From Haplosporangium gracile (Eukaryota; Mortierellomycota; Mortierellomycetes; Mortierellales; Mortierellaceae): 19,010 bases of DNA. The DNA is taken from NCBI GenBank assembly GCA_015499985.1, contig JAAAUF010000789.1, forward strand, positions 710-19,719, given 5' to 3'. Of the stretch, positions 1,840-18,882 are shown in pieces. The notes under the pieces are model-generated. The model searched no databases, was not told where the DNA came from, and saw only the letters and a list, made by a program, of their open reading frames with translations. The position numbers and the translations under genes were made by a program. Positions within the stretch are counted from its first letter, which is position 1, and every line of letters starts with the position of its first letter.

Positions 1840-4034
1840 TTAGAGGATTTGGATATGTGATCGACGCTCAATCCAGCGGGCGACCAAGAGCGAGACAAAC
1901 GAGCGGCGGCTAGTTTGGTACTTGTGGAATGGAGCCGTGCGGGTGACATAGCTCTCGCTCAGGAACGAGATCATGTCCAGCACCACCGGTTCCATCTCTG
2001 CAAACGAGTATCCCGAGTACTCAACCAAAATGGCAGGCTGCATACATAGCGCGAGTGAAAAAAAGAGAGTGATTTGATATTAGCAGCCAGGTCGAAGAGC
2101 GAGCAGCACAGCGCGAGCTTTAAAAAGAAAATGAGCAAAGTGACACTCACCCAGTCCTCGCGTCCTTGCATGGATCGACCGATGTACAGGGCTGCTGCTG
2201 CTTGCAGAGATGGTCGGTAAAGCACAAACCGCTCATCGACCAGGATGACCTCGAGGATGTATTTTGCTACCAACCGAGCAGCTTGGTCACAGTTGTCCGC
2301 ACGCGAGCACCGACGCAAGAACGACAATGGACCAGGCCACCCGAGTTTGTAATCAAACAGCTGTAAGAGATGTCGTTCTCCCGCTCGAAAGATGACCGGA
2401 TCAAGAAGAGGCAACCCCAATCGCCCAAGGATATGGAGAAAGTCGATCACACGTGCGAATGGGTTGCGCTCCTCGAACTTTGACGCGATCAGGACACAGG
2501 TGACAATCAATATGCGTGGCTGGTGGAGGTTATCCTGCAGGGTGCGACAGCTGAGATATCGATCCATTAGATTGACAGCCAAGAAGACTGTCTCACCAAT
2601 GGTGTTGAGACTGTCACACACCCTGCAGGCGATATCCACACAGATTCGCCGAACCGACCAAGCATCTCTTGGTTTGCTCTCCAAGTAACCGATCGCGGGC
2701 GCCAACATGATCTATGTGTATGTGTCGAGGAGGCGGATAGAAGGTTGAATTTTTGCATATATGAGTAGTTGTGCACAAAAGTCATACAAGATCACGAAAG
2801 CGAATATTATTACCTCAAGTTCACGCATGTATGAAAAGATGCCCTCAGAATACTCGCCGGCCAGCATAGGGTCCTCCAACTCCTGGACCCGAAGTGTGCG
2901 CTGCAACTCATCAGACTCGTCGGCTTCTCGTCGGCGCTTCCCAGGTTTTGTATCAGCGGATCTTGCTTCCTCAGCTGCAACCGCTCGCTCAAGTCCGGTA
3001 TGTGTTGCTGGATACTCTGTGGTCGTTGTTACCAGTCGTGCGTCCGCATGTACTGGAACCCGCGCTCGACATGTTACATCGATAGTACTAAGTCCTTCAA
3101 GGCGTTCGATAGGCGCGGCGAGTTGGGTGAGTGCAGTTGTGGTGTTCCGAGTCAGAATTGCTCTAGGCGATGATAAGGTTGCTGCGCGTCGATGAGCTGG
3201 ATCACTTGTGCGGGGAGTTGACTTCGGCGCATGTAAAGGGACGTCCTTGACCCCTTTTTCTGCAGCGACTGTGCGTCGAGTTGTTCTGTCAATAGTCTCC
3301 TGGTATCGACCTGTAGTTGGCGAACGGGCTGTAGTTGTAGACGTTTTTGCCGTAGCCACTGCGATGGTTTTGGTGGTCCTGACAATAGGAGATGACGATC
3401 TTGATGTAGCTGTTTGATCTGGGTTGCTCCAACCTGCAGCCACTCTTGCATTGATAAGCTCCGACAAGGGCTGCCTAGTGGCTGGTCGTGGTACGCCTCC
3501 CGTACGAGCCTGGCTTTGAGCAAGCGGCTGTTTGGGACGAAGGGGACGGTAGGGTTGCTTAAGGAGAGCATTGCGGTTGCTTGGGAGTTTGAGTAGGTTG
3601 ATTCCTCCGTAGTTGGTGGTCACTGCTGTCGTTTGAGTTCTGACTTTGCTGTCATGTTGTTCATAATATCGCCGTTTTGGATCAGGAATTACAGAGGGTG
3701 GTGGTCGTGGGATAGACATTCGAGGTCTATTTCCTTCACCAGTTGTTTTCAAGGGTTCCCGAGGAGTTGTGGATGTAGCCGTTGCATTGATGATGACGCT
3801 CGAGTTCTATTTTGTGTATGAGTGCTCCAGTAGTTAGTACTGTGATCACAAGTGCAGGAACAAAAGGAGCGAATAGAGCGAGCGTCGTTATTGTTACTGC
3901 AAAAGTACTTCTGTTTGTGGATCAGGAACGTTCTCCTTGTTGTTGGCTTGGTCGGTAGAGTGGTGAGCAGACGCGTTTTGAAGACGGTTCCTCGGGTTGC
4001 GTGCAGTCCGAAGCGAGGACTGAGTTGGAAGCAT
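1840..4034 (-). CDS. B-type mitotic cyclin, divergent
   Basis: Proposed exons are 4034-3909, 3806-2814, 2711-2151 and 2037-1840, all phase 0, giving 625 residues. Cyclins bind and activate a cyclin-dependent kinase; B-types drive mitosis in the nucleus and are destroyed through the APC/C. Residues 1-370 form a long, low-complexity, basic region with a KEN box (33-35, context NKENVP) and a D-box (RQPLSELIN, 153-161). The N-terminal cyclin fold starts at MRELE (369-373) and includes DRYLS (423-427) and ASKFEE (449-454); a Glu near 485 (GERHLLQ) may be the CDK-contact partner of K451. The C-terminal fold opens with WPGPLSFLRR and contains EYSGYSFAEM. The usual MRAIL/VDWL segment reads RRICVDIAC, so the substrate-docking patch is unusual. 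A downstream ATG (TCT following, about residue 72) could serve as start if exon 1 were wrong, but exon 1 supplies the KEN box. The subclass assignment is by motif recognition only. Confidence 0.87.
2038..2150 (-). other. Cyclin intron 3
   Basis: This is a 113-nt phase-0 intron with donor GTGAGT directly after the Trp codon of GREDW and acceptor GCAG before PAILVEYSGY. CTAAT within GCTAATATC is a plausible branch site. Splicing restores the C-terminal cyclin fold, whereas reading through gives unrelated sequence. Confidence 0.9.
2712..2813 (-). other. Cyclin intron 2
   Basis: This is a 102-nt phase-0 intron with donor GTAATA after MRELE and acceptor CATAG before IMLAPAIGYLE. It sits at the start of the cyclin box, and splicing joins the two halves of the canonical first helix. 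Confidence 0.88.
3807..3908 (-). other. Cyclin intron 1 (boundaries uncertain)
   Basis: The minus strand has a perfect TACTAAC branch sequence (plus-strand 3833-3839) about 25 nt before a TAG acceptor at 3807-3809. With donor GTACTT at 3908 the intron is 102 nt and phase 0. A second in-frame solution uses donor GTAACA at 3897 and a GAG acceptor at 3799-3801 (99 nt, phase 2); it has the better donor and the worse acceptor. Either choice joins the KEN-box exon to the main N-terminal exon. Confidence 0.6.
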
Positions 4035-4429: not shown

Positions 4430-5173
4430 ATGGTTCGACTGTACAGATTCACGCACAAGGCAATCAATCTCATCGCCGACAACCACAACAGCAATACTAG
4501 CAATGCTGACAGCACTGTCCCAGCAGAGATCAACCTGCCCAACCTGACAATGTTCTCGACCATCCTCTTCATGACAGAGTTCAGGCAGATGGGCATGGGC
4601 GACTCTGTCGACGTCTCAAAGACCTGCAACATGTCCGAGTGGCATCGTCGTCTCTACCAAGGCGCCGTCGAGACAGCTCAGTCAGACAATGACCCCTATG
4701 TCGACGTTCTAACGCTGTCATCTAGGCCAGTCTCCGAGGCAGGAATTATCTATGTGACCACTACCTGCCCAGCAGACCAGGACGACGGCAAGGAGGCGTT
4801 CTCGTCATTCCTCTTTGCGATCCACAAATCGTCCATTGCCAAGACGATTCCCTCAACAAACAACGGAGAGACGCACAAGTTGCCACTGGAGGCAGAGGCG
4901 TTGGTCTCTGTCAAGGGAGCTACGCATATCTGGTTATGTGGGTCAGATCCTGAGCAGAGACGTCACCGGCTCATGAGCCAGTGTCTTGCGCAGCTCGAGC
5001 AGGATGTTCGCGAGTGGAAGGCCAACGGACAAGGATCGGGGGTGCTGACAGTTCATACGCTCCCTAGAGCGTTCCCAGGAATGGTCCAGTTCTTGAAAAA
5101 GAATGGATTTGTTGGTGGCGACAAGGTCATTGGCGGTGATGGCGACAAGGTGCTTTATTGGAAGGCGCTCTAA
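4430..5173 (+). CDS. Putative GNAT-fold protein, intronless
   Basis: The gene is a single 247-codon frame. The start context is GCAACATGG, with A at -3 and G at +4, and the stop is TAA. I do not recognise a named family member. The last 80 or so residues have a GNAT-like order: a strand (THIWLCGSD), a pyrophosphate-loop position followed by a helix (PEQRRHRLMSQCLAQLEQ), a strand (GVLTVHTL), and the typical ending helix and strand (AFPGMVQFLKKNGFVGGD). GNAT proteins usually transfer an acyl group from acetyl-CoA to an amine, with a Q/RxxGxG/A loop. Here that loop reads EQRRHRLM without glycine, so activity is doubtful. The first 60 residues are Asn/Ser-rich and probably loose. There is no signal peptide or membrane segment. 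It shares a promoter region with the cyclin gene. The ORF is well supported; the GNAT label is tentative. Confidence 0.75.
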   Translation: MVRLYRFTHKAINLIADNHNSNTSNADSTVPAEINLPNLTMFSTILFMTEFRQMGMGDSVDVSKTCNMSEWHRRLYQGAVETAQSDNDPYVDVLTLSSRPVSEAGIIYVTTTCPADQDDGKEAFSSFLFAIHKSSIAKTIPSTNNGETHKLPLEAEALVSVKGATHIWLCGSDPEQRRHRLMSQCLAQLEQDVREWKANGQGSGVLTVHTLPRAFPGMVQFLKKNGFVGGDKVIGGDGDKVLYWKAL

Positions 5174-5752
5174 GTAAGTCTCTATGATCACTTTCCCTAT
5201 TTTCACTGTTGAATAAACTTGCAATTGCACTGAGGAGAGAAACGCGAAGACACTCTAACACAACTTGACTGGAAAGTGCTACGGGTAAGTGTCTTGGACC
5301 ACCTCGTCCTTTTTCACCTAATGAGATAAATTTGTGACTACGCCGACGAAAGAAATATAAAAAAAACTTACACTATCACTATAGTATATATGTGGGACTG
5401 AGTGAGAGTAAATGACGCGAACCTATGGATGGCCAAACCGCCGCCGTTACCTCACAAGATATTCTCTTTGGCCCGAAGCGGGTTCTTCGAGGTAATATGC
5501 TCAGCATTAGGATAGGGAGTAAGGATCAGGTCTCACACAGGAAAGACACGCAGAGACTGAAGGGTGAAGAATGAGTGAAATATACAAAAAAACATCATGC
5601 CACTCTATTGTTTGTCGTACAAAAGGAGGACTCAAATTCAACTTGGAGAATAATGCGCGTTCTAGATCTTGTCATGGAACCTCTTGCGATACAATGTTGC
5701 CATGAAGATACTAGGCGAGTGGTCACAGAGCTGTGAATCATGAATGGAACGA
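5174..5752. other. Intergenic before the pseudogene
   Basis: After the 3' end of the GNAT-like gene I see no coding signal. No similarity to the missing 5' part of the repeat-protein gene (12488-14363) is visible, so the pseudogene's signal peptide and first three modules are absent, not merely decayed. The switch from unrelated to homologous sequence is sharp at 5753. Confidence 0.65.
5212..5217 (+). terminator. Poly(A) signal AATAAA after the GNAT-like gene
   Basis: The hexamer lies about 40 nt after the stop codon, in an AT-rich context. A perfect donor-like GTAAGT follows the stop codon immediately (5174-5179), so a 3' UTR intron cannot be excluded. Confidence 0.55.
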
Positions 5753-5908
5753 TGGCTACTTTGGCATCCAGGCTCAGTTGGATGGCGCCCAGCTGGCTGG
5801 TCTGGAGATGAATACTGGCCTTAACTACGCTGGTGGCTGTGTTCAGATGGATGCTGGTATTGCTTTCAACGTCGGCACTGGCCCCACTATCAGCAGCAAA
5901 GTTGCTGC
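5753..5908 (+). repeat. High-identity tract shared with 14364-14519
   Basis: These 156 bp align without gaps to the intact gene with four mismatches by my count. Similarity falls to about 75% directly afterwards. The tract starts at the pseudogene's truncation point, so recent gene conversion or templated repair is likely. Confidence 0.8.
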
Positions 5909-6057
5909 CCTTGTCAACGCCATTATTACCAAGCAGGCTGTCGCCAGCACTATTGGTATCTCTGGCATTGTCATTGGTAACAGCCTTACCGACCTGATCA
6001 ACGCGCTCTCTGGGATCTCTGTCCAGCTGCCCCTCGGTGGATTGATCGGCGGAGTTG

Positions 6058-6193
6058 GTAAATCTTAATTTCCTAACACCTTTTGATTTTTTAACGTGTG
6101 CGTTTGTACGTTTTTCTCCTATCATATTTAAATAAACAGAACACTTACTAATCATTTTAATCCTCCACCTCTTTACCGCGCCTCCTGTTTTAG
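6058..6193 (+). other. Fossil intron in the pseudogene
   Basis: This is a 136-nt intron with donor GTAAAT, a CTAAC near the 5' end, an ACTAAT near 6145, and acceptor TTTTAG. It is equivalent to the 138-nt intron at 14669-14806 in the intact copy, with the same phase (1). Its near-equal length supports choosing the distal acceptor in the intact gene. Confidence 0.8.
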
Positions 6194-6291
6194 CTCTTTC
6201 CTCGCTTCCTTCCAATTTCCTCAACGGCACTCTTGTACAGCTCGGTCTCAACCTCGCCGACTTCTCCTTGGCCAACATCTCCGGCACTGGC

Positions 6292-6356
6292 CTCCGCGTC
6301 GGTGCAAGGGCTATCTTCTCCAACCCCATCCCCATCTCCGTCTCTGTCCCCTACAT
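6292..6356 (+). repeat. Second high-identity tract shared with 14896-14960
   Basis: These 65 bp have one mismatch (6314) to the intact gene, with synonymous positions also conserved, inside a surrounding region of clearly lower identity. Confidence 0.7.
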
Positions 6357-9300
6357 TGGAATCAGCGGCGGCCTTGACAACATTTATCTTGCTAGTATCG
6401 GTGTCAACAACTTGGCTCTCACCCCCGGCGGTAACTCCCTCCAGGCTGGCATTGATCTCAACTTTAACAACGCTGCTAACGCTCAGACCAAGATCGCCAC
6501 TTTCCTCGGCGAGCTCCTTGACGGTCAGCTCGGTGCCACCCCTGAGCTGTTGACTGTTCACAACTTGGGCCTTGGCGCTTCACCCTCTGACTACTTTGAT
6601 TTGCCGTCGTAGATTAACATTGCGATCCCATCCAGGGACATTATCAACAAGGCCAACCTCGACCTTATTACCAGCAAGCTCGGCAATATCAACATTACCC
6701 AGATCACCAACTACCTGCTCAGTACCTTACAGATTGGCGACAGCTCTGACTTGACCAAGGCTCCTATATTGAGCTTGGGCGCATCCGTTTCTGTCAGCAA
6801 CGACCATTCCCCGGTTGGGTCTCACCTCTGCCAACAACTCTTTGTCGATCAACTTTCAGGCTCTTGTTGATGTCAAGCAGACCCCCGAGGCCAGCGGCCA
6901 GGTCGCGAAGCTTATCGGGTCCTTGTTGAATCCCGGTCAGGTCACTCCCCCTACTGCCTTAGTCATCTTCCAGCCGGTTTTTGGTGGTGATATCAACCAC
7001 TTATTCCACATCCTATCGCAGATCAAAGTCAGCGTTCTCCTGGCTCCTTACTTTCAGCAGATCGGTGAATTGTTAAACAGTGCTGTTGCCGGAGGCAGCA
7101 ACTTGTTGACTGGTCTCGACATCGGATCGCTTGTTGTCGACCTCAACTCTCCCCAGATCATCGGAATCGACGTTGCCATCTTACTCAAGAACATCACTAT
7201 CCCTGCCGAGATCAAGCTCAAATATGTCGGAGTAAACATCGCTGTTAACACCATTGGTCTTGCCCAGATCTCGATCCCCACCTTCACCCTCAAACCTGCC
7301 AACGGTACCTTGGCTAACACTGCTCGCGTCAACGTTGCTTTGTTGTCCAGCCCCGAATTGAGCAAGGCCCTTTCAGGATTGATTGGCGGTGTCCTTAGAA
7401 GCCAGACCCTCCCTCAGACCAACATCATTCTCTCTAACGCCGTCTTTGGGCAGTCTGCCACCAACGTCTTCACTTTCCTTCAAGGAGTTGTTATCTCCGT
7501 CAACATTTCGCCCTACATCTCGTAGATTGGCGGTGCTGTTGGTGGAGCTGGTTCGTTCTTGAACGGTCTTGGACTCTCTGGCTTGGCCATTAACCTTAAC
7601 TAGGCCACTGTCATTGGTATCGATGCTAGCGTTGCTGTCTGCAACTTAACCCTTCCTGCCAAGCTCTACCTTGGTTGCCTTGGACTCGATATCGGCATTA
7701 ACAACGTTCCCTTGGTCAAGGTCGATCTCCCCAAGCTCGTCTTGGAACAGAACGGACGCGATTTCACTATCAGCACTCACGTTGACGCCATCCTTCAGGG
7801 AACTTATGCCTCCAAGACCCTCGTTGCTGGACTTGTCAACGGTATTGTGGCCGGTCAGGCTCCTCAGGGAACTATCTTAATCTCGGGTATCACCTTCGGG
7901 GCCAGCGCCAACAACGCCTTCACCTTCCTCCAGGGTGTTTAAATTCCCATTCCAATCTCCAAAATTCTGTCGCTCGTCACCGCCATCCCAGGAACCAACG
8001 CCACCTCGTCCCTGAGCTAGTTGGATCTCCAGAAGGCCGACATCAACATGAAAAACCTCCCAGCGTCGGTACCGATATCGCCATCGCCCTTCTCGGCTAT
8101 CAGTTCGATACCCAGTTGTTGCTCAGCTATGTCAGCATCAGCGCCTTCTTGGACACCATCCCTTTGGCCACAATCACTGTCCTTGGTATCCAGCTGTCGT
8201 CTGGCAACAGTCAGGTCGCCTTGAGCGTTCACTCATTGGCCAACTTGACCAGCGGTGGTGATATCCAGACCAAGGTCGCTGCTACTGTCAACCAGGTGCT
8301 GGGTAATGGTGAGCTCAGAACGCAAACTTGGTCGTCTCCAACGTTGCCTTTGATGGTAGCGCCTTCAGAACTTTCAACATTTTGGATAAGGTTCAGGTCT
8401 CGGTTCCTATTGACCCTTACATCCAGCAGTTGACCGGTATTGTCGGAGGCATTGTTGGTGACAACACCACTGCACCCGCTGGTGCCTCCCTCAGTGTCAC
8501 TCAGTTGGATATCAGCACCACTGCCCCCAATGACTTGTCTGTTGCTGTTGGTGCTGCTATAGGTGATCTTGGATCCAAGATCTCGGTCGAGACGCCCTAC
8601 ATTGGTCTCCAGGTCGCTGCCATCGGTAATGGCCTCGTTAATGCTACTATCAACAACCTGCAATTAGCCAAAGGCAAGGTGTCTTTGACCTTGGCTCTTC
8701 CCTTCCAGCCCGCCGCTAAGAGCATCATTGTCTCGCTCTCGACCCCGTCTCGCAGCTGATGTTCTCGACTGTCGGCACTGTTCCTGGCGCGATTGTCGCC
8801 AACAACATCCAGTTCGGAGCCTCAGCCAGCCAGTCGTTCGACATTACTTTGAAGGTTGCAGTTAACAACGAGTTAAACTCGGTCTTTCAGAAGGCCCAAG
8901 CTTACATTGATGCCCATAACTCACTCCACGTGAATGATATGAACACGGTCTTGACTACCACGGGTATCCAGGCCACGATTGTTGTGCCCAGTATTCCCCT
9001 GGGTAGCTTGCCTCTCAAAATGGATTTCCCCATCATTCTCTCGGGATACCACCAGAATGTTGCCTTCCTTGGTATCCAGGCCACCTCGATGGCTCTCACC
9101 TCGTCTCCTTGGGTCTTAGGTACCAACATCAATGTCATCCAGCCTGCCTTTGGTACCGCCATGAACTTGATCCTCCCTAACGCCCTCCACTGGAAGAACG
9201 CCGTTCAGGATGTGACCCTCGGTGATGTCACCCCTGGTTCCTTCACCGTCCTTCAGGGTCTTCAGATCACACGCCCCGTCATCACCGTCTGGTTGCCCAT

Positions 9301-9739
9301 CACCGCGCCCCTGAACCAGCTCAAGTTGCACCTCTCACCCCTGGGCATGGACTTTGCTGCTTCTTTCGTTAACTGCGGCCCCATGCGTGTTGATGTGGGC
9401 TCAATCGACATTATGGTCAAGCAAGGACCTAACACCGACGTCATCGAGATCCAGAACTTGGGAGGTTCCATCCATTTCAACTACGTCAACCAGAACGGCG
9501 GCAATAACCTCTTGGCGTTCAACGCCTCCTTGAAATTCAACTTCTTGCAGTTCTTCACCATCATTGGGGCGCTTCTGAACCCTAAGGACAACTTCCAGTT
9601 TGTGTACTCGATGAAGACCGCCTCAAGTCAGCCTATGCCCTGGTTACAGGACGCTCTGAACGGTGTGCCTGATACCCTCTTTGCCAACCTCTTATTTATC
9701 CTCGTTAAGGCCCTCCAAAACGTCAATTTTGGTTTTTAA

Positions 9740-12487: not shown

Positions 12488-12565
12488 ATGAGATTCCTCG
12501 TAGCAATGACGACACTAGTCGGCGCTTCGATGGTCGCATCCATATTCCTCCCCATCGCCACAGCT
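12488..12565 (+). other. Signal peptide
   Basis: The protein starts with MR followed by a hydrophobic stretch of about 20 residues (FLVAMTTLVGAS...), then ends in IATA before Asp. The A-x-A pattern at residues 24-26 suits signal peptidase. If cleavage failed, it would act as a type II membrane anchor. Confidence 0.75.
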
Positions 12566-15500
12566 GACACGATAACCGACTCCCCCGGCGCCATCATCCT
12601 CGGTGGGCTCGGTTCTCTGGTGCCCAAGCCATCCCCCAGCACCGCAACGAGTTACATCACACCTGGCATGGCCAATATCACCAGTGTCGGCGTCTTTGTC
12701 AATACGTCAACTCTCATCTCCTTCACCGCAAACGGCACACTCAAGAACCCTCTCAGCGAGTCCCCTCTACCACTTGGTCGCGCTGGATTCAGTATTGCGG
12801 TCGATGGTCAAAATATCGCCAACATCACGACATACAACTTGACCCTGCCTGGTGGAACGGGTCCTGTCTTTCTCAACGCCACCATCGCCCTGCCTGAAGT
12901 GTCTTCTAGTCCTGCGATACAAGCTTCTCTTAATAACCTCGTCACCAATCTCTTGGGCAAAACTACTCCCAGCGGCCCTCCACCGGTAATCGTCATTTCT
13001 GATTTTACCCTCTCTGGAATCAACATGGGGTTGCCATCCATTACTATCCCTGTCCAGTCTGCATCGTCCGCTCCCCCACCTATACCAGACGCCATCCCAC
13101 CTCCTCCAGTCATTGGTACCTGGGGTATTTTGAACCCTGGTGTTGCCTTTGAGGCACCTACGCTCAAGAAACTGGTCATCAAAGCTGTCTCGGGTGCCAA
13201 GCTGACTCTTGCTGCTGACTTTGAATGGAACAACCCGTTGAATATTGCCCTCGATATCCCGTTTATTGCGGCTGACCTTGGCTTTAACAGCACTCGTGTT
13301 GCTACCATTGGCATGCATGCTGTCCAGCTGGCCCCTGGTCGTATGACTGCTGATACCCAGATCGACCTCACGTTCAACAACGATGTTGAAGCTTCCGTCC
13401 AACTCTCAGCTTTTATTCGTGACTTTCTTGCTGGTGTGTAAATCTAAAACGAGTTCATCAAATTAATTTTTCGCGTTCGGACATGCAGCCCGCACAACGA
13501 GCTAACACCCCTTCCTTTATTTTCTGTCCCTTTTGCGTTGCAGGCCAGCTCAGCCAGACTGTGAACATTGGCAACCTGTCCTTCGGCAACTCTAGTGACA
13601 CCTCTGCGACAGGCACGGTCCTCAACACCTTGTTCAGCGGTGTCACTGTTGACTTACCCCTATTGGGCTATAATACCATTGTTCTTCAGCAGTTGGTCCT
13701 GGGGCTCGTCGAGCCGTTCCTCCCCTTCCCTATCGACCTTAGCAAGCTCGGTGGTTCTGGTGCTTCCATATTGCAGTATATTCAGAGCCTGGCCATATCC
13801 ACCGCTCCTGGGCACACTCTCTTGATCCAACCCAAGATCCAGCTTCCCTCCCCCTTCTTGTTGGACTTGAATATTCCATACCTCGCTTTGGATGTCAACT
13901 TCAATGACAACTTGCTTGGTCAGTTGTTCCTGACCAACCTTGTCGGTTCTGGTCAGGGTAAGATCGCAGTGTCGCTCGGCATTGGACTCGTCTTCAGACA
14001 ACCAAACCCATCGGTTCCCGCTACTGTTGCACAGTTGTTGAACGGAATCTCTACCGGCGCGCCTAGTGATACCACTGCTGGTGTTGGGAATTTGGCTATC
14101 GGTGTCTCTCCTTCAGATGCCATTAACACTCTCAGCGGCCTTTCAGCGTCTGGTCCCTTCTCGAGTATCATCGCGGGCTCGCTCGGTGGTGGTAGCTCTC
14201 TCCAGACCAACATTACCGTTGTCCAGAACGCAATCAGCATCAAAGCCGGATCTCTTTTTGAGTTGGTAATCCATGGTGCCAGCATCAATGTCCTCCCCAA
14301 CAATCTCATCACCGCTGTCGTCAAGCTCGAGGTCTTTTTGGGTCTCCCAGTTGTTGCCAACATTGGCTACTTTGGCATCCAGGCTCAGTTGGATGGCTCC
14401 CAGCTGGCTGATCTGGAGATGAACACTGGCCTTAACTACGCTGGTGGCCGTGTTCAGATGGATGCTGGTATTGCTTTCAACGTCGGCACTGGCCCCACTA
14501 TCAGCAGCAAAGTTGCTGCTCTTGTCAACGCTATCATCGCAAAGCAGGCTGTTGCTGGCAGTATCGGCATTTCTGGAATTGTCATTGGTGATAATCCAAG
14601 TGACATCATTGATGCCCTCTCTGGTCTCTCGTTTGCTCTGCCCCTCAGTGGTCTATTGGGCAGTGATAGTAAGTATTCCCTTCTTTTCCATTGAGCTGGT
14701 GGATGTTTGGTCTAAGTGTGTGCGTCGTTGTTTGTTTTAGATAAAGTTGGATCATTCACAGCACTGACCAAATTATCTTTCTGTTTCTCATCCCATTCTC
14801 TCACAGCCTCCTCTGGCGGGTTTCTCAACGGTACACTCGCTCAGCTCGGCTTCAACCTTGCCGACTTTTCACTATCCACTATCCCCAATGCCGGTCTCCG
14901 CGTCGGTGCAAGGGCTACCTTCTCCAACCCCATCCCCATCTCCGTCTCTGTCCCCTACATCGGGATCAACGGTGGCCTTGACAATGTTGATCTTGCAACC
15001 CTTGGCCTCAACGACCTGGCCTTTGTCCCCGGTGCCAACTCCCTCCAGGCCAGCATCGATCTCAATTTCAACAACGCTATCGCTAGCCAGGCCAAAATCA
15101 CTGCCTTCCTTGCCAAACTCCTGAGTGATCAGTTTGGTAGCACCCCTGAGCAGTTGACTCTCCACAACCTGCGCATCGGTGCTTCACCCTCGAATTATTT
15201 TGATCTGTTCTCGCAGATCAATATTGCCTACCCGTCCAAGGATCTCTTCACCAAGTCCAACCTGGATACTCTCTATGCCATGTTGGGTATTGATTTTTCC
15301 AAGGCGGCCGGCACTCTTTTGGATAAGCTGAAGATTGGCGCAATATCTTTGGGTCTAGACGAGGCCCCTGTCATGGACCTTAGTACCTCGATCGCGCTCG
15401 GCAACTTTTCCCTGAAAGCTGCAGTCGACATTGGATATTTCGGTTTGGATCTTGCACTTGACAATCACGTCCTGGGCCACGTTGACATCCCCTCGATAAA

Positions 15501-18500
15501 CATCTCGACCTCCAACAACCAACTCATCCTTGCCCTCAAGGCTGCCATCACCGTCGAGGATACACCTGCAGTCCAGACCGACATCGCCAACATTGTCGAC
15601 TTTTTGTCGTCCAATACTACCACTGCTTCTCCTGTCAGCAACCTTGTGGTTTCCAAGCCTGTGTTTGGAGTCTCGGAGTCGGACAACATCCAGACATTTG
15701 CCTTGCTCCAGTACCCCTTTGCTCTGACTGAGGTGATGACCAAGGCTAGAATGAGCATTGCACAGTTGTTTTCCGGCGCTGGTGGACTTATCACGAACAA
15801 CATGGTCCTGTCTGGACTCGTCCTGGACTTGAACAGTCCCTCGGTCGCTGGTGTGCAAGGTGGTCTCCAGATTAAGGGCCTCACTCTCCCTGTCGATCTC
15901 AGCATCAGCTATATCGGTGCGTCCCTCGGATTGGATGCCATTCCCTTGGGCGATCTCACCATCCCTTCGTTGGCCTTAACCTCGGCCAACAACCAGCTCT
16001 TGATTGACTTCAAGGCAAGCCTCAACCTCCAGCAAGGCGAGGAAGCCAGCTCCCAAGTTGCCAAGTTGTTCGGTGCCCTTCTTTACCCTGGCAAGGTCAT
16101 CTCTCCTACCAACCTCGTCATATACAACCCTGTCTTTGGTGGCGACCCACAGCACCTCTTCCATATCCTGTCCCAGGTCAAGTTTAACATTGCCGTCGCC
16201 CCCTACATGCAAAAGCTTGGAGCGATCTTTAGTGGTAGTAGTGGTAGCCTGTTGGATGATCTCGCCCTCGGAGCACTGAAGGTCAACCTCAACAACCCAC
16301 AGACCATCGGTATCGATACGACTGTTGCCATCAAGAACGTCACCATTCCTGCCGAAATCAAGCTGAACTATGTCGGTCTCAATCTCGCTCTCAACACTGT
16401 CGGTCTGGCCCAAGTTACTAGCCCCCAGTTCACTCTTACGCCTGTCAATGGTGCTCTTTCCATCTCTGCGCACCTTGACATTGACATGTCGATCAGCAAG
16501 GAGCTCAACTCAGCCATCAATAACTTAATTAGTGCGGTCGTCAATAATCAAACCGTCCCCGCCACTAACCTCGTTCTCTCTGGCCTGGTCTTTGGCGGCT
16601 CTCAGACTAACGTCTTCACTATTCTCCAGGGTCTTACCATCCCCATCGACGTATCGTCCTATGTTGCCAAGCTCGGAGGCCTTCTCAGCGGCGCAGGTTC
16701 ATTGTTGAACGGTCTTGGTCTCTCGGGTCTTGCGATCGATTTGAACCAGGCTCCTAATATCGGTATCGATGCCAACATTGCTCTCCAGAACTGGGCCCTC
16801 CCTGCCGAGTTGACTGTCGGATATGTTGGCCTGAGCATGTCTGCCAGCAATGTACCTCTGGCCAAGATCGGCATCCCCAAGATTCAGCTCGGCACCAGTG
16901 GCACTAGCTTGACCATCGCCACTCACCTCGGTATTGCCTTGGAGGAGAGCGATAGTACTCAGACTTTGGCTGCTGGCCTTGTTAATGCTCTTGTTGCTGG
17001 GCAGACTCCTCAGGGTACTGTTGTCTTTTCTGGTCTCACCTTTGGTCCAAGCGAGAGTAATGTCTACACCTTCCTCCAGGGCATCCAAATCCCCATTCCG
17101 ATCTCTAGTATCATCTCGGTTGTCGCCCCTGCTACTGGTGGGCCCGGCGCTGGAAACTCGTTCTTGGACAAGCTGAGCCTCCAGAGCGCTGACATCAACA
17201 TGAAGAACCCTCCTAGCATCGGTGCCGATTTTGCAATCGCCCTCCTCGGCTACCAGTTTGACGCCAAGCTGTTGCTTAACTATGTCAGTCTCCGCGCCTT
17301 CTTGGACACCACCTCATTGGCGACTGTCTCTGTCCCCGGTATTGCTCTCTCCTCTGGCAACAACCAGATCGCCGTCAAGGCCAATGCTCTGCTCAACTTG
17401 GCCAGCGGTAGCGATATCCAGGCCAAGATTGCGGCCATTGCTGCAGAGGCCATGGGTAACGGCGGCGGAGCGCAGAATGTCAACTTGGTTCTGTCTAATA
17501 TTGCCTTTGGAGGCACTGCTGAAAAGGTGTTCCATATCCTGGACAAGGTCAAGGTCTCGATTCCTATTGGCCCTTACATCCAGCAGTTCGCGGCTTGGGT
17601 CGGTCGCATTGTCTCTGGCGGCAGCAGCAACTCTACACTCAGTATCAGCCAGTTGGATATTACAGCCCCTGGTGCCACCGAGCTTTCTGTTGCTGTTGGT
17701 GCCGCGATCGGCGGTATTGGGTCTAAGGTCTCGGTCGAGATGCCGTACATCGGTCTTCAGGCCTCAGCTAACGGCAATGGGTTCGTTTATCCCACGATCA
17801 ATGACTTGCAATTGGCTAACGGCAAGCTGGCTCTCACATTGGCTCTTCCCTTCCAACCCGCTGCCAAGAGCATCATTGCCTCGCTTTCAAATCCAATCTC
17901 AGAGCTCCTGTTCTCGACAGTCGGCAATGTCCCTGGTTCACTCATCATCAACAGCGTCAAGTTTGGTGCCTCTGCTGGTCAGTCTTTTGACCTCGCCTCC
18001 AAAATCGGTCTGACGTTCAGTGTCAACTCGGTCTTCCAGTACTTGCAGTCGTTCATGGGTAAGCCCGGGTCACTCCAATTAAGCGACGTAAATGCCCTCC
18101 TCACCGCGACCGGCGTCGAGGCATCAATCGCCATCTCGGGTGCTTCTCTGAACGGTCTGCCTCTGAAGCTCAATTTCCCTATCAGTCTTGCGGGCTACTA
18201 CAAGAACGATACCTTTGTGACCGCAGACATCACATCGATGGACCTAAACCGCTCCCCTTGGTCCCTCGGTACCACTATCCGAGCTGATGAGCCTGCGGCC
18301 CAACCTGCGGTGAGCTCGATGATCACCAACAGTCTGCAGGGCAAGAACGTTATTCAGGATATCACCCTACGAGGCATCAACCTGGGTCCATGCACAGTCT
18401 TCACCGGTCTGACGATCTACCCCCCCGCAATGGGCTCCGACTCCTCCATGTCAGCCACAGACGTCAAGACCCACCTCTCCCCCTTGAGCGCAGACTTTTC

Positions 18501-18882
18501 CGTCACCTACCCCAACAAAGGCCCGCTCCGAGTCGACATGGGCCCTATCCACATCCTCATCAAACAAGGTCCCACTACCGACGTCATGGAAATCTACAAC
18601 ACCAACCCTACCCCTTCCTCCCCCATCCACATCAACAACATCCTTCAAAACGCAGGCAACAACCAGATCCCGATGCTGGCCATGATGAAATTCAGTTTCT
18701 TTGAATTTTTTGGTGTCCTGGCGGGATTGATGAATCCAGGGGATAGGTTCCAGTTTGAGTTCTTGGTCAAGACTGCCGGTGGAGAGGAGGAGATTGGGTG
18801 GTTGAGGGATGGGTTGAATGGGGTATCGGATGTGGTTTACGGAAGTTTTTTGCCGGGGATCGCCAAAAACCTTGTCTTCTGA
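12488..18882 (+). CDS. Giant exported protein with ~12 DUF3712/LEA-2-like modules
   Basis: Exons are 12488-13433, 13544-14668 and 14807-18882, giving 2,048 residues. I chose the ATG at 12488 for its A at -3 and a normal signal-peptide start; an in-frame ATG at 12455 (T at -3) would add 11 residues. After the signal peptide come six N-glycosylation sequons (N63, N72, N82, N112, N117, N130), a Pro-rich linker near 200-220, and modules starting at about 60, 223, 388, 530, 694, 859, 1016, 1170, 1321, 1473, 1631 and 1775, then a distinct tail of about 120 residues. A typical module has an NP-type motif (LNNPQTIGID), a Y(V/I)GL strand and an (F/I)Gx(S/D) turn. This resembles fungal DUF3712 and the LEA-2/WHy fold; yeast vacuolar Tag1 is, from memory, a relative with few modules. 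LEA-2 domains are suspected of binding lipid, so a lumenal or secreted lipid-handling or structural role is possible but unproven. Only one Cys is present and no further membrane segment. Codons are strongly C-ending, suggesting high expression. Confidence 0.9.
13434..13543 (+). other. Intron 1 of the giant gene
   Basis: This is a 110-nt phase-1 intron with donor GTGTGT, CTAAC near 13502 as a likely branch, and acceptor GTTGCAG. Splicing joins DFLA to GQLSQTVN inside module 2. Without it the frame stops at once (GTG TAA). Confidence 0.88.
14669..14806 (+). other. Intron 2 of the giant gene
   Basis: This is a 138-nt phase-1 intron with donor GTAAGT and acceptor TCTCACAG. The pseudogene's equivalent intron is 136 nt. 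An earlier acceptor (TTTGTTTTAG, ending 14740) is also in frame and would add 22 residues. Confidence 0.78.

Follow-up and report, generated by a model that had tools for sequence, protein, structure and literature searches.

The stretch of DNA from the soil fungus Haplosporangium gracile analysed here (the window, 19,010 nucleotides) covers positions 710–19719 of contig JAAAUF010000789.1, which is nearly all of this 19,719-base contig in a genome of 37.5 Mb. Its main feature is a forward-strand gene for a giant protein of 2048 amino acids built of repeated modules. The gene consists of three exons at 12488–13433, 13544–14668, and 14807–18882, the last including the stop codon. The original prediction, made from the DNA letters, had given the span 12488–18882 and the length of 2048 amino acids, and both are exact after removal of two GT..AG introns. 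Intron 1 (13434–13543, 110 bases) lies inside the second module, and intron 2 (14669–14806) has 138 bases. Exon 1 encodes residues 1–316 with its last codon split and agrees with the homologue P0001. In P0005 and in a paralogue on contig C100, the long last exon appears by eye to start at the place matching the end of intron 2. The start codon is uncertain, as annotations of homologues differ between an upstream ATG (12455 here; P0002), the ATG chosen in the original prediction (P0032), and a later ATG (P0001). There are no in-frame stops over the 2048 codons. The product contains a single cysteine and six tryptophans, together with 19 sequons for N-glycosylation. The nearest protein, with 91% identity over exon 3, is from Linnemannia schmuckeri, which belongs to Mortierellomycota by taxonomy look-up.

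The repeats were examined with a module hidden Markov model (HMM), which was seeded with residues 1329–1465 and iterated over 53 homologues and the window protein. Twelve modules were found with 60.7–125.1 bits each and a spacing of 142–169 amino acids (median 155). In 400 shuffled controls and one reversal, the best domain reached 8.4 bits, and any domain at E<1e-3 appeared in 5 of the 401. A chance origin of the repeats is rejected by this comparison. Because the iteration drew on homologues, a run with the seed only is the cleaner check. It returned nine further modules at E<0.005. Modules 4, 5, 6, 7, 8, and 10 (12.6–83.4 bits) exceeded the 8.1 bits of the best control run with the seed only, and modules 1, 2, and 3 (3.1–7.1 bits) did not; module 11 appeared at E 0.11 and module 12 was not listed. 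Pairwise identity among the modules is 10–39%, and the autocorrelation of the protein sequence peaks at lags 457, 153, and 304. The about twelve modules of regular period proposed earlier were thereby confirmed, and the predicted structure adds a probable thirteenth.

All modules are on the forward strand. Module 1 is at 12701–13060 (residues 72–191; 68.4 bits) and module 2, split by intron 1, at 13178–13662 (residues 231–355; 84.5 bits). They are followed by module 3 at 13795–14157 (residues 400–520; 78.8 bits), module 4 at 14284–14649 (residues 563–684; 90.3 bits), and module 5 at 14872–15237 (residues 713–834; 103.3 bits). The part covered by the predicted structure includes module 6 at 15355–15726 (residues 874–997; 105.7 bits), module 7 at 15829–16197 (residues 1032–1154; 115.2 bits), module 9 at 16741–17106 (residues 1336–1457; 125.1 bits), module 10 at 17200–17568 (residues 1489–1611; 113.0 bits), module 11 at 17674–18024 (residues 1647–1763; 81.5 bits), and module 12 at 18100–18420 (residues 1789–1895; 60.7 bits). 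Module 8, at 16288–16653 (residues 1185–1306; 124.5 bits), is of the type that is multiplied in longer paralogues. The probable module 13 at 18451–18771 (residues about 1906–2012) is seen in the predicted structure only; the region gave no profile match to the module HMM (–0.5 bits), though a similar order of strands and helix is predicted. The recurring motifs described earlier are real but looser than claimed, according to a reading of the module alignment. The [FI]G pair occupies one alignment column in 10 of the 12 modules, and an exact Y[VI]GL is present in 3 of 12. 'NP' is not a single motif: modules 1, 2, and 5 carry it in the LEA-2-like column, modules 8 and 10 close to strand 1, and modules 3, 4, and 11 at other places.

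The modules are firmly related to LEA-2/DUF3712 at the level of the superfamily, as judged by sequence comparison, because homologues pass the Pfam LEA_2 cut-off, the module alignment matches DUF3712 domains in HHalign, and the HMMs of both sides match each other reciprocally in register. The LEA-2/DUF3712 label of the original prediction therefore stands as superfamily kinship, but the score of the window protein itself reaches neither of the two Pfam cut-offs. On its exons, LEA_2 (PF03168) gave 16 bits against a cut-off of 25.4, with E=0.017, in exon 1 only (residues 248–299, in module 2). DUF3712 (PF12505, cut-off 24.1 bits) gave no match there, and none of its 26 matches in this genome is on contig C943. 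A search of this genome with LEA_2 found nothing. In contrast to the window protein, the Blastocladiella homologue P0073 passes LEA_2 with 50.0 bits against 25.4 in three stretches, the best of which (1120–1171) lies inside a module found by the HMM (1109–1223). The homologue P0009 of Mortierella sp. NVP41 also passes with 27.9 bits, so that in both species the cut-off is exceeded on a module. Other homologues stayed under the cut-off (P0001, 16.4 bits; P0013, 10.2; P0074, 13.2) or gave no match (P0053 and P0054), and 4 of the 12 members of one alignment match LEA_2 at E≤0.1. When 36 single modules were scanned at E up to 1, 19 Pfam families appeared. LEA_2, matching 4 of the 36, was the sole family to match more than one module; the other 18, DUF3712 included, matched one each. 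The best E value among the LEA_2 and DUF3712 matches was 0.0011. Calycin_like, Invas_SpaK, EBV-NA1, STIV_turret_2nd, and others were Pfam matches below the cut-off and were set aside. PF26150 is listed by the database for 17 of 75 homologues, and an NCBIfam scan of P0073 and P0009 gave nothing useful.

The relation to DUF3712 was measured within this genome. An alignment of 36 modules, 11 of the 12 window modules among them, was compared by HHalign with 20 partly overlapping DUF3712 domain rows. The two aligned over 87 columns with 14% identity, at a probability of 95 and a score of 46.4; the maximum over 60 column shuffles was 12.3, and the reversed alignment gave 17.6. An HMM trained on the DUF3712 domains matched window modules 5, 2, 1, 3, and 6 in register with 16.3 to 5.3 bits, module 5 being the top match, a direction run without a shuffle control. 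Conversely, the module HMM matched all five DUF3712-bearing frames given to it, with best scores of 8.1–20.4 bits against 5.1 for the best of 200 shuffles. These five were drawn from eight frames with DUF3712 matches, the other three of which overlap them. The 26 DUF3712 matches of this genome are distributed over 13 contigs, including C295, C305, and C712, and several loci hold two or three DUF3712 domains per reading frame. These loci resemble the giant gene in that homologous modules in register are likewise arranged in series. They differ in that DUF3712 passes its cut-off in 26 places against none in the window protein, and in that the C295 gene is probably anchored. The DUF3712 genes of this genome form a large family that merits separate study, several of them multi-module and one probably membrane-anchored.

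The structure predicted for residues 850–2048 (the C-terminal 1199) contains eight repeating units of a beta sandwich plus a helix, with a mean pLDDT of 74.9. The model of three modules alone had a mean pLDDT of 76.6. The repeating domains expected by the original prediction are therefore present in the part that was modelled. The secondary structure predicted for each module is a run of strands and one helix of 12–15 amino acids, plus a linker helix; in module 11 the helix is broken in two. The domain of LEA14 is a two-sheet beta sandwich with one helix, and the predicted secondary structure is in keeping with it. A Foldseek search with the three-module model listed sandwiches with TM values of at most 0.25 among the 50 matches listed. 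Among the matches in the VIA structure listing were rods of Ig-like type and a mastigoneme protein from an alga, all with low Z. No entry among the listed matches of these structure searches was recognised as LEA-2, and such a listing excludes nothing. When PDB sequences were searched with E values up to 10, neither exon 3 nor P0073 had a match, and the module profile had one, to the Als3 adhesin (E 0.91). In the model, the hydrophobic fraction of strands averages 0.64 on the more hydrophobic face and 0.26 on the opposite one, as in an ordinary amphipathic sandwich. Seven of the 47 strands are at least half hydrophobic on both faces. This pattern speaks neither for nor against a groove.

The N-terminus carries a putative cleavable signal peptide at 12488–12565 (forward strand; residues 1–26), with a presumed cleavage site at ATA|D. 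Fifty-six rows of the family were chosen for a conserved start, although P0012, P0022, and P0037 among them are truncated or wrongly caught. A hydrophobic core above 1.8 is present in 54 of the 56 rows, and AxA follows just after a short core in 47 of the 56. The proposal of an exported protein is thus upheld by a signal-peptide signature across the family, as far as sequence can tell. A Tag1-type N-terminal anchor was not found in the window protein, where, after the signal-peptide-like start, the 19-residue segment next in hydrophobicity averages 1.8. On the other hand, P0073 has an N-terminal membrane segment (hydropathy 3.21 over 19 residues) behind a 74-residue tail, and P0075 has one (2.71 over 19 residues) behind a 54-residue tail. 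These anchored relatives are one chytrid and one blastoclad, whereas the Mortierellomycota proteins are without an anchor. No membrane segment is present in the annotated form of P0053, and P0074 lacks its start. In this genome, an open reading frame (ORF) just upstream of a 1214-amino-acid DUF3712 exon on C295 has a similar segment (3.15) and is presumably the first exon of that gene. By eye, P0073, P0075, and the C295 ORF share a short V/I/F stretch before a proline after the membrane segment. These comparisons suggest that the anchor was replaced by a signal peptide, with the direction of change probably from anchored to exported.

Three protein searches gave 75 distinct relatives. Each search scored only about 8000 candidates that share most words, and the distribution is that of the relatives found there. 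All of the 74 relatives examined, partial ones included, have at least four modules with a median spacing of 147.5–162, and the 75th has 13 modules. Most full-length relatives have 12 to 22. Four of the 75 are from outside Mortierellomycota. The relatives from Quaeritorhiza, Chytriomyces, and Gorgonomyces (Chytridiomycota) have 13 modules each, the Chytriomyces one being incomplete, and P0073 of Blastocladiella emersonii (Blastocladiomycota) has 22 modules in 3776 amino acids. Six of the other 71 are unnamed, and the rest carry names that we take to be of Mortierellomycota, Linnemannia alone being confirmed by taxonomy look-up. The third search used an alignment with P0053, a chytrid protein, at its head and found P0053 itself and one new relative. 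P0001 (BG015_009555) of L. schmuckeri is a clear orthologue with 12 modules, and no difference was seen beyond sequence divergence. The Mortierellomycota relatives, P0001 among them, are deposited as hypothetical proteins. Three relatives from Mortierella alpina have a Ser/Thr/Pro-rich C-terminal tail. A search for a relative of one P0073 module on a plasmid was negative (three matches, E 5 to 8).

The number of modules differs in the middle of the array. Window modules 1–7 pair with modules 1–7 of a 14-module Linnemannia hyalina paralogue (P0065), and modules 9–12 pair with its modules 11–14. The identities of the best pairs are 51–82%, and the extra modules are in the middle: window module 8 is similar to P0065 modules 8, 9, and 10 at 61, 51, and 51%. 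In the 16-module P0054 of Podila minutissima, modules 9–11 are mutually 72–84% alike. As read from these alignments, arrays lengthen by duplication of middle modules while end modules are conserved. With the outermost pairs trimmed, mean identity among the modules of P0073 is 0.38 at lag four and 0.23–0.31 at lags 1–3 and 5–7, and P0073 shows signs of a four-module higher-order duplication.

Plant members of the LEA_2 family such as LEA14 and NHL proteins are short and typically have one domain. Yeast Tag1 and Vac7 and human TMEM106B have an N-terminal tail, cytosolic in Tag1, and a membrane anchor. They belong to the same proposed domain superfamily, with the domains on the lumenal side, and the one chytrid and one blastoclad relative share their tail and anchor. 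The Mortierellomycota proteins differ from them in carrying a signal peptide and no anchor, a comparison drawn from descriptions of these proteins. Very long, repeated, beta-rich rods are known from the bridge-like proteins VPS13 and ATG2, which are cytosolic. The rod predicted here resembles them by analogy only; they differ in place and fold. Available excerpts of PMC10340176 give three LEA-2 domains for Tag1 and one each for Vac7 and TMEM106B, against 12–13 here and up to 22 in a relative, and describe all three as proposed lipid transfer proteins. A long lipid-binding groove of LEA-2 domains is described in an excerpt of PMC12297828. Both sources cite Levine 2022, which its title marks as a prediction. 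No literature on DUF3712, or on LEA-2 with Mortierella, was found in one open-licence library. Papers on late embryogenesis abundant proteins and Mortierella included none about these proteins, by title and the start of the abstract. Among the matches listed for family terms, titles were mostly of plant LEA studies and none was on fungal giants. The original prediction had regarded the gene as a candidate for an undescribed system. This is tempered by the DUF3712 matches on 13 contigs of the same genome, the multi-module loci, and the many deposited Mortierellomycota relatives. Within the literature searched, what is new is not the domain, which is known, but the module count, the missing anchor, and the growth by middle duplication.

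The interpretation that we favour, tentatively and with somewhat less than even confidence, is a soluble exported rod, secreted or in the vacuole lumen, of about 13 LEA-2-superfamily sandwich modules that would bear lipid-type hydrophobic sites. The ancestors of the module array were probably LEA-2 proteins with a type II membrane anchor, a state that would still be seen in one chytrid and one blastoclad relative and, probably, in one DUF3712 gene of this genome. In Mortierellomycota, a cleavable signal peptide would have taken the place of the anchor, and the array would therefore be free. Each module may offer a hydrophobic site for a sterol, a fatty acid, or another lipid, as proposed for LEA-2 domains, and the array might therefore hold many ligands or hand them along. 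Its length would be set by duplication of middle modules between conserved end modules. The strand pattern neither supports nor excludes a groove. Therefore, a purely mechanical rod of the cell wall, spore wall, or matrix is weighed beside it as a possible though less probable explanation, in which the sandwiches would be spacers, like the strings of Ig-like domains in adhesins, and would bind no lipid. The ordinary amphipathic strands, the 19 sequons, the Ser/Thr/Pro-rich tails of the M. alpina proteins, and the low-Z Ig-like and mastigoneme entries would all fit a spacer, as would the variation of array length by module duplication, most full-length relatives having 12 to 22. However, the end modules are preserved from one paralogue to another, in order and in identity, beyond the apparent needs of a spacer, Pfam scans found no wall-binding domain, and the LEA-2 proteins described in the excerpts of PMC12297828 and PMC10340176 are lumenal with a proposed lipid groove.

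A sensor or regulator of the vacuole lumen resembling Tag1, which would report breakdown products such as lipids and act in trans without an anchor, is unlikely. It would agree with the homology to DUF3712 domains, with the existence of anchored relatives, and with the vacuolar location of yeast Vac7 and Tag1 and their regulation of PI(3,5)P2 and autophagy in the excerpts of PMC12297828 and PMC10340176. However, the window protein has no cytosolic tail or membrane segment for signalling, and the same genome has separate DUF3712 genes. That the gene is a misread or decayed repeat region and not a real protein is highly improbable. A decayed copy does adjoin it, but its 2048 codons are open, it keeps its 91% identity to the L. 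schmuckeri protein over exon 3, and full-length relatives exist in many species. We also consider, as a speculation with rather low odds, that the soluble rod is an exoplasmic lipid bridge, in which at least 13 LEA-2 sandwiches would align their grooves into one lipid path and length would be gained by copying of middle modules. If this is true, lipids in early-diverging fungi would cross the vacuole lumen, periplasmic space, or wall on such a bridge, which would be a counterpart of VPS13-type bridges outside the cytosol.

Human TMEM106B, a protein of unsettled molecular function, is among the proposed members of the LEA-2 superfamily. Mortierellomycota are lipid-rich fungi. An apparently soluble natural string of at least a dozen LEA-2-type domains, with many variants in Mortierellomycota, can be a source of single-module and multi-module constructs for the question of lipid binding. 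The arrays also suggest how an anchored lumenal protein can turn into a free exported rod that grows by module duplication.

Upstream of the gene, a decayed copy of the adjacent 14-module paralogue is found on the forward strand at 5748–9739. Its 5' part is gone, and it has an internal loss, frame breaks, and five in-frame stops (6610, 7523, 7601, 7940, and 8018). Its stretch 5748–9736 aligns piecewise with P0065 at 66–88% in the best chain, without the first 609 residues of P0065 and about three modules inside (917–1407 in the best chain, limits that the repeats make uncertain). An alternative genetic code was rejected as the cause of the stops because the intact gene has no in-frame stops and the decayed copy shows frame breaks and deletions as well. 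Related species carry an intact version of the decayed gene, and consecutive locus numbers suggest that such a gene pair also sits side by side in L. schmuckeri, L. hyalina, L. exigua, and L. zychae. The paralogue on C100 has three long open exons and matches a 14-module protein of L. elongata (P0013) at 89% over the full length (tblastn). A 226-base tract of the decayed copy (5753–5978) is 92% identical to 14364–14589 of the intact gene, and other matching stretches are 74–76% identical. This difference in the DNA is suggestive of gene conversion between the two.

Three further reading frames were noted in the window. For an intact ORF of 247 amino acids at 4430–5173 on the forward strand, which by eye is possibly acetyltransferase-like, Pfam gave no match up to E 10. 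On the reverse strand, an ORF at 2712–3752 is without a Pfam match (E up to 0.01). It may be the N-terminal exon of the cyclin gene whose exon lies beside it at 2157–2708, also on the reverse strand, with matches to Cyclin_N (62.3 bits) and Cyclin_C (54.8 bits).

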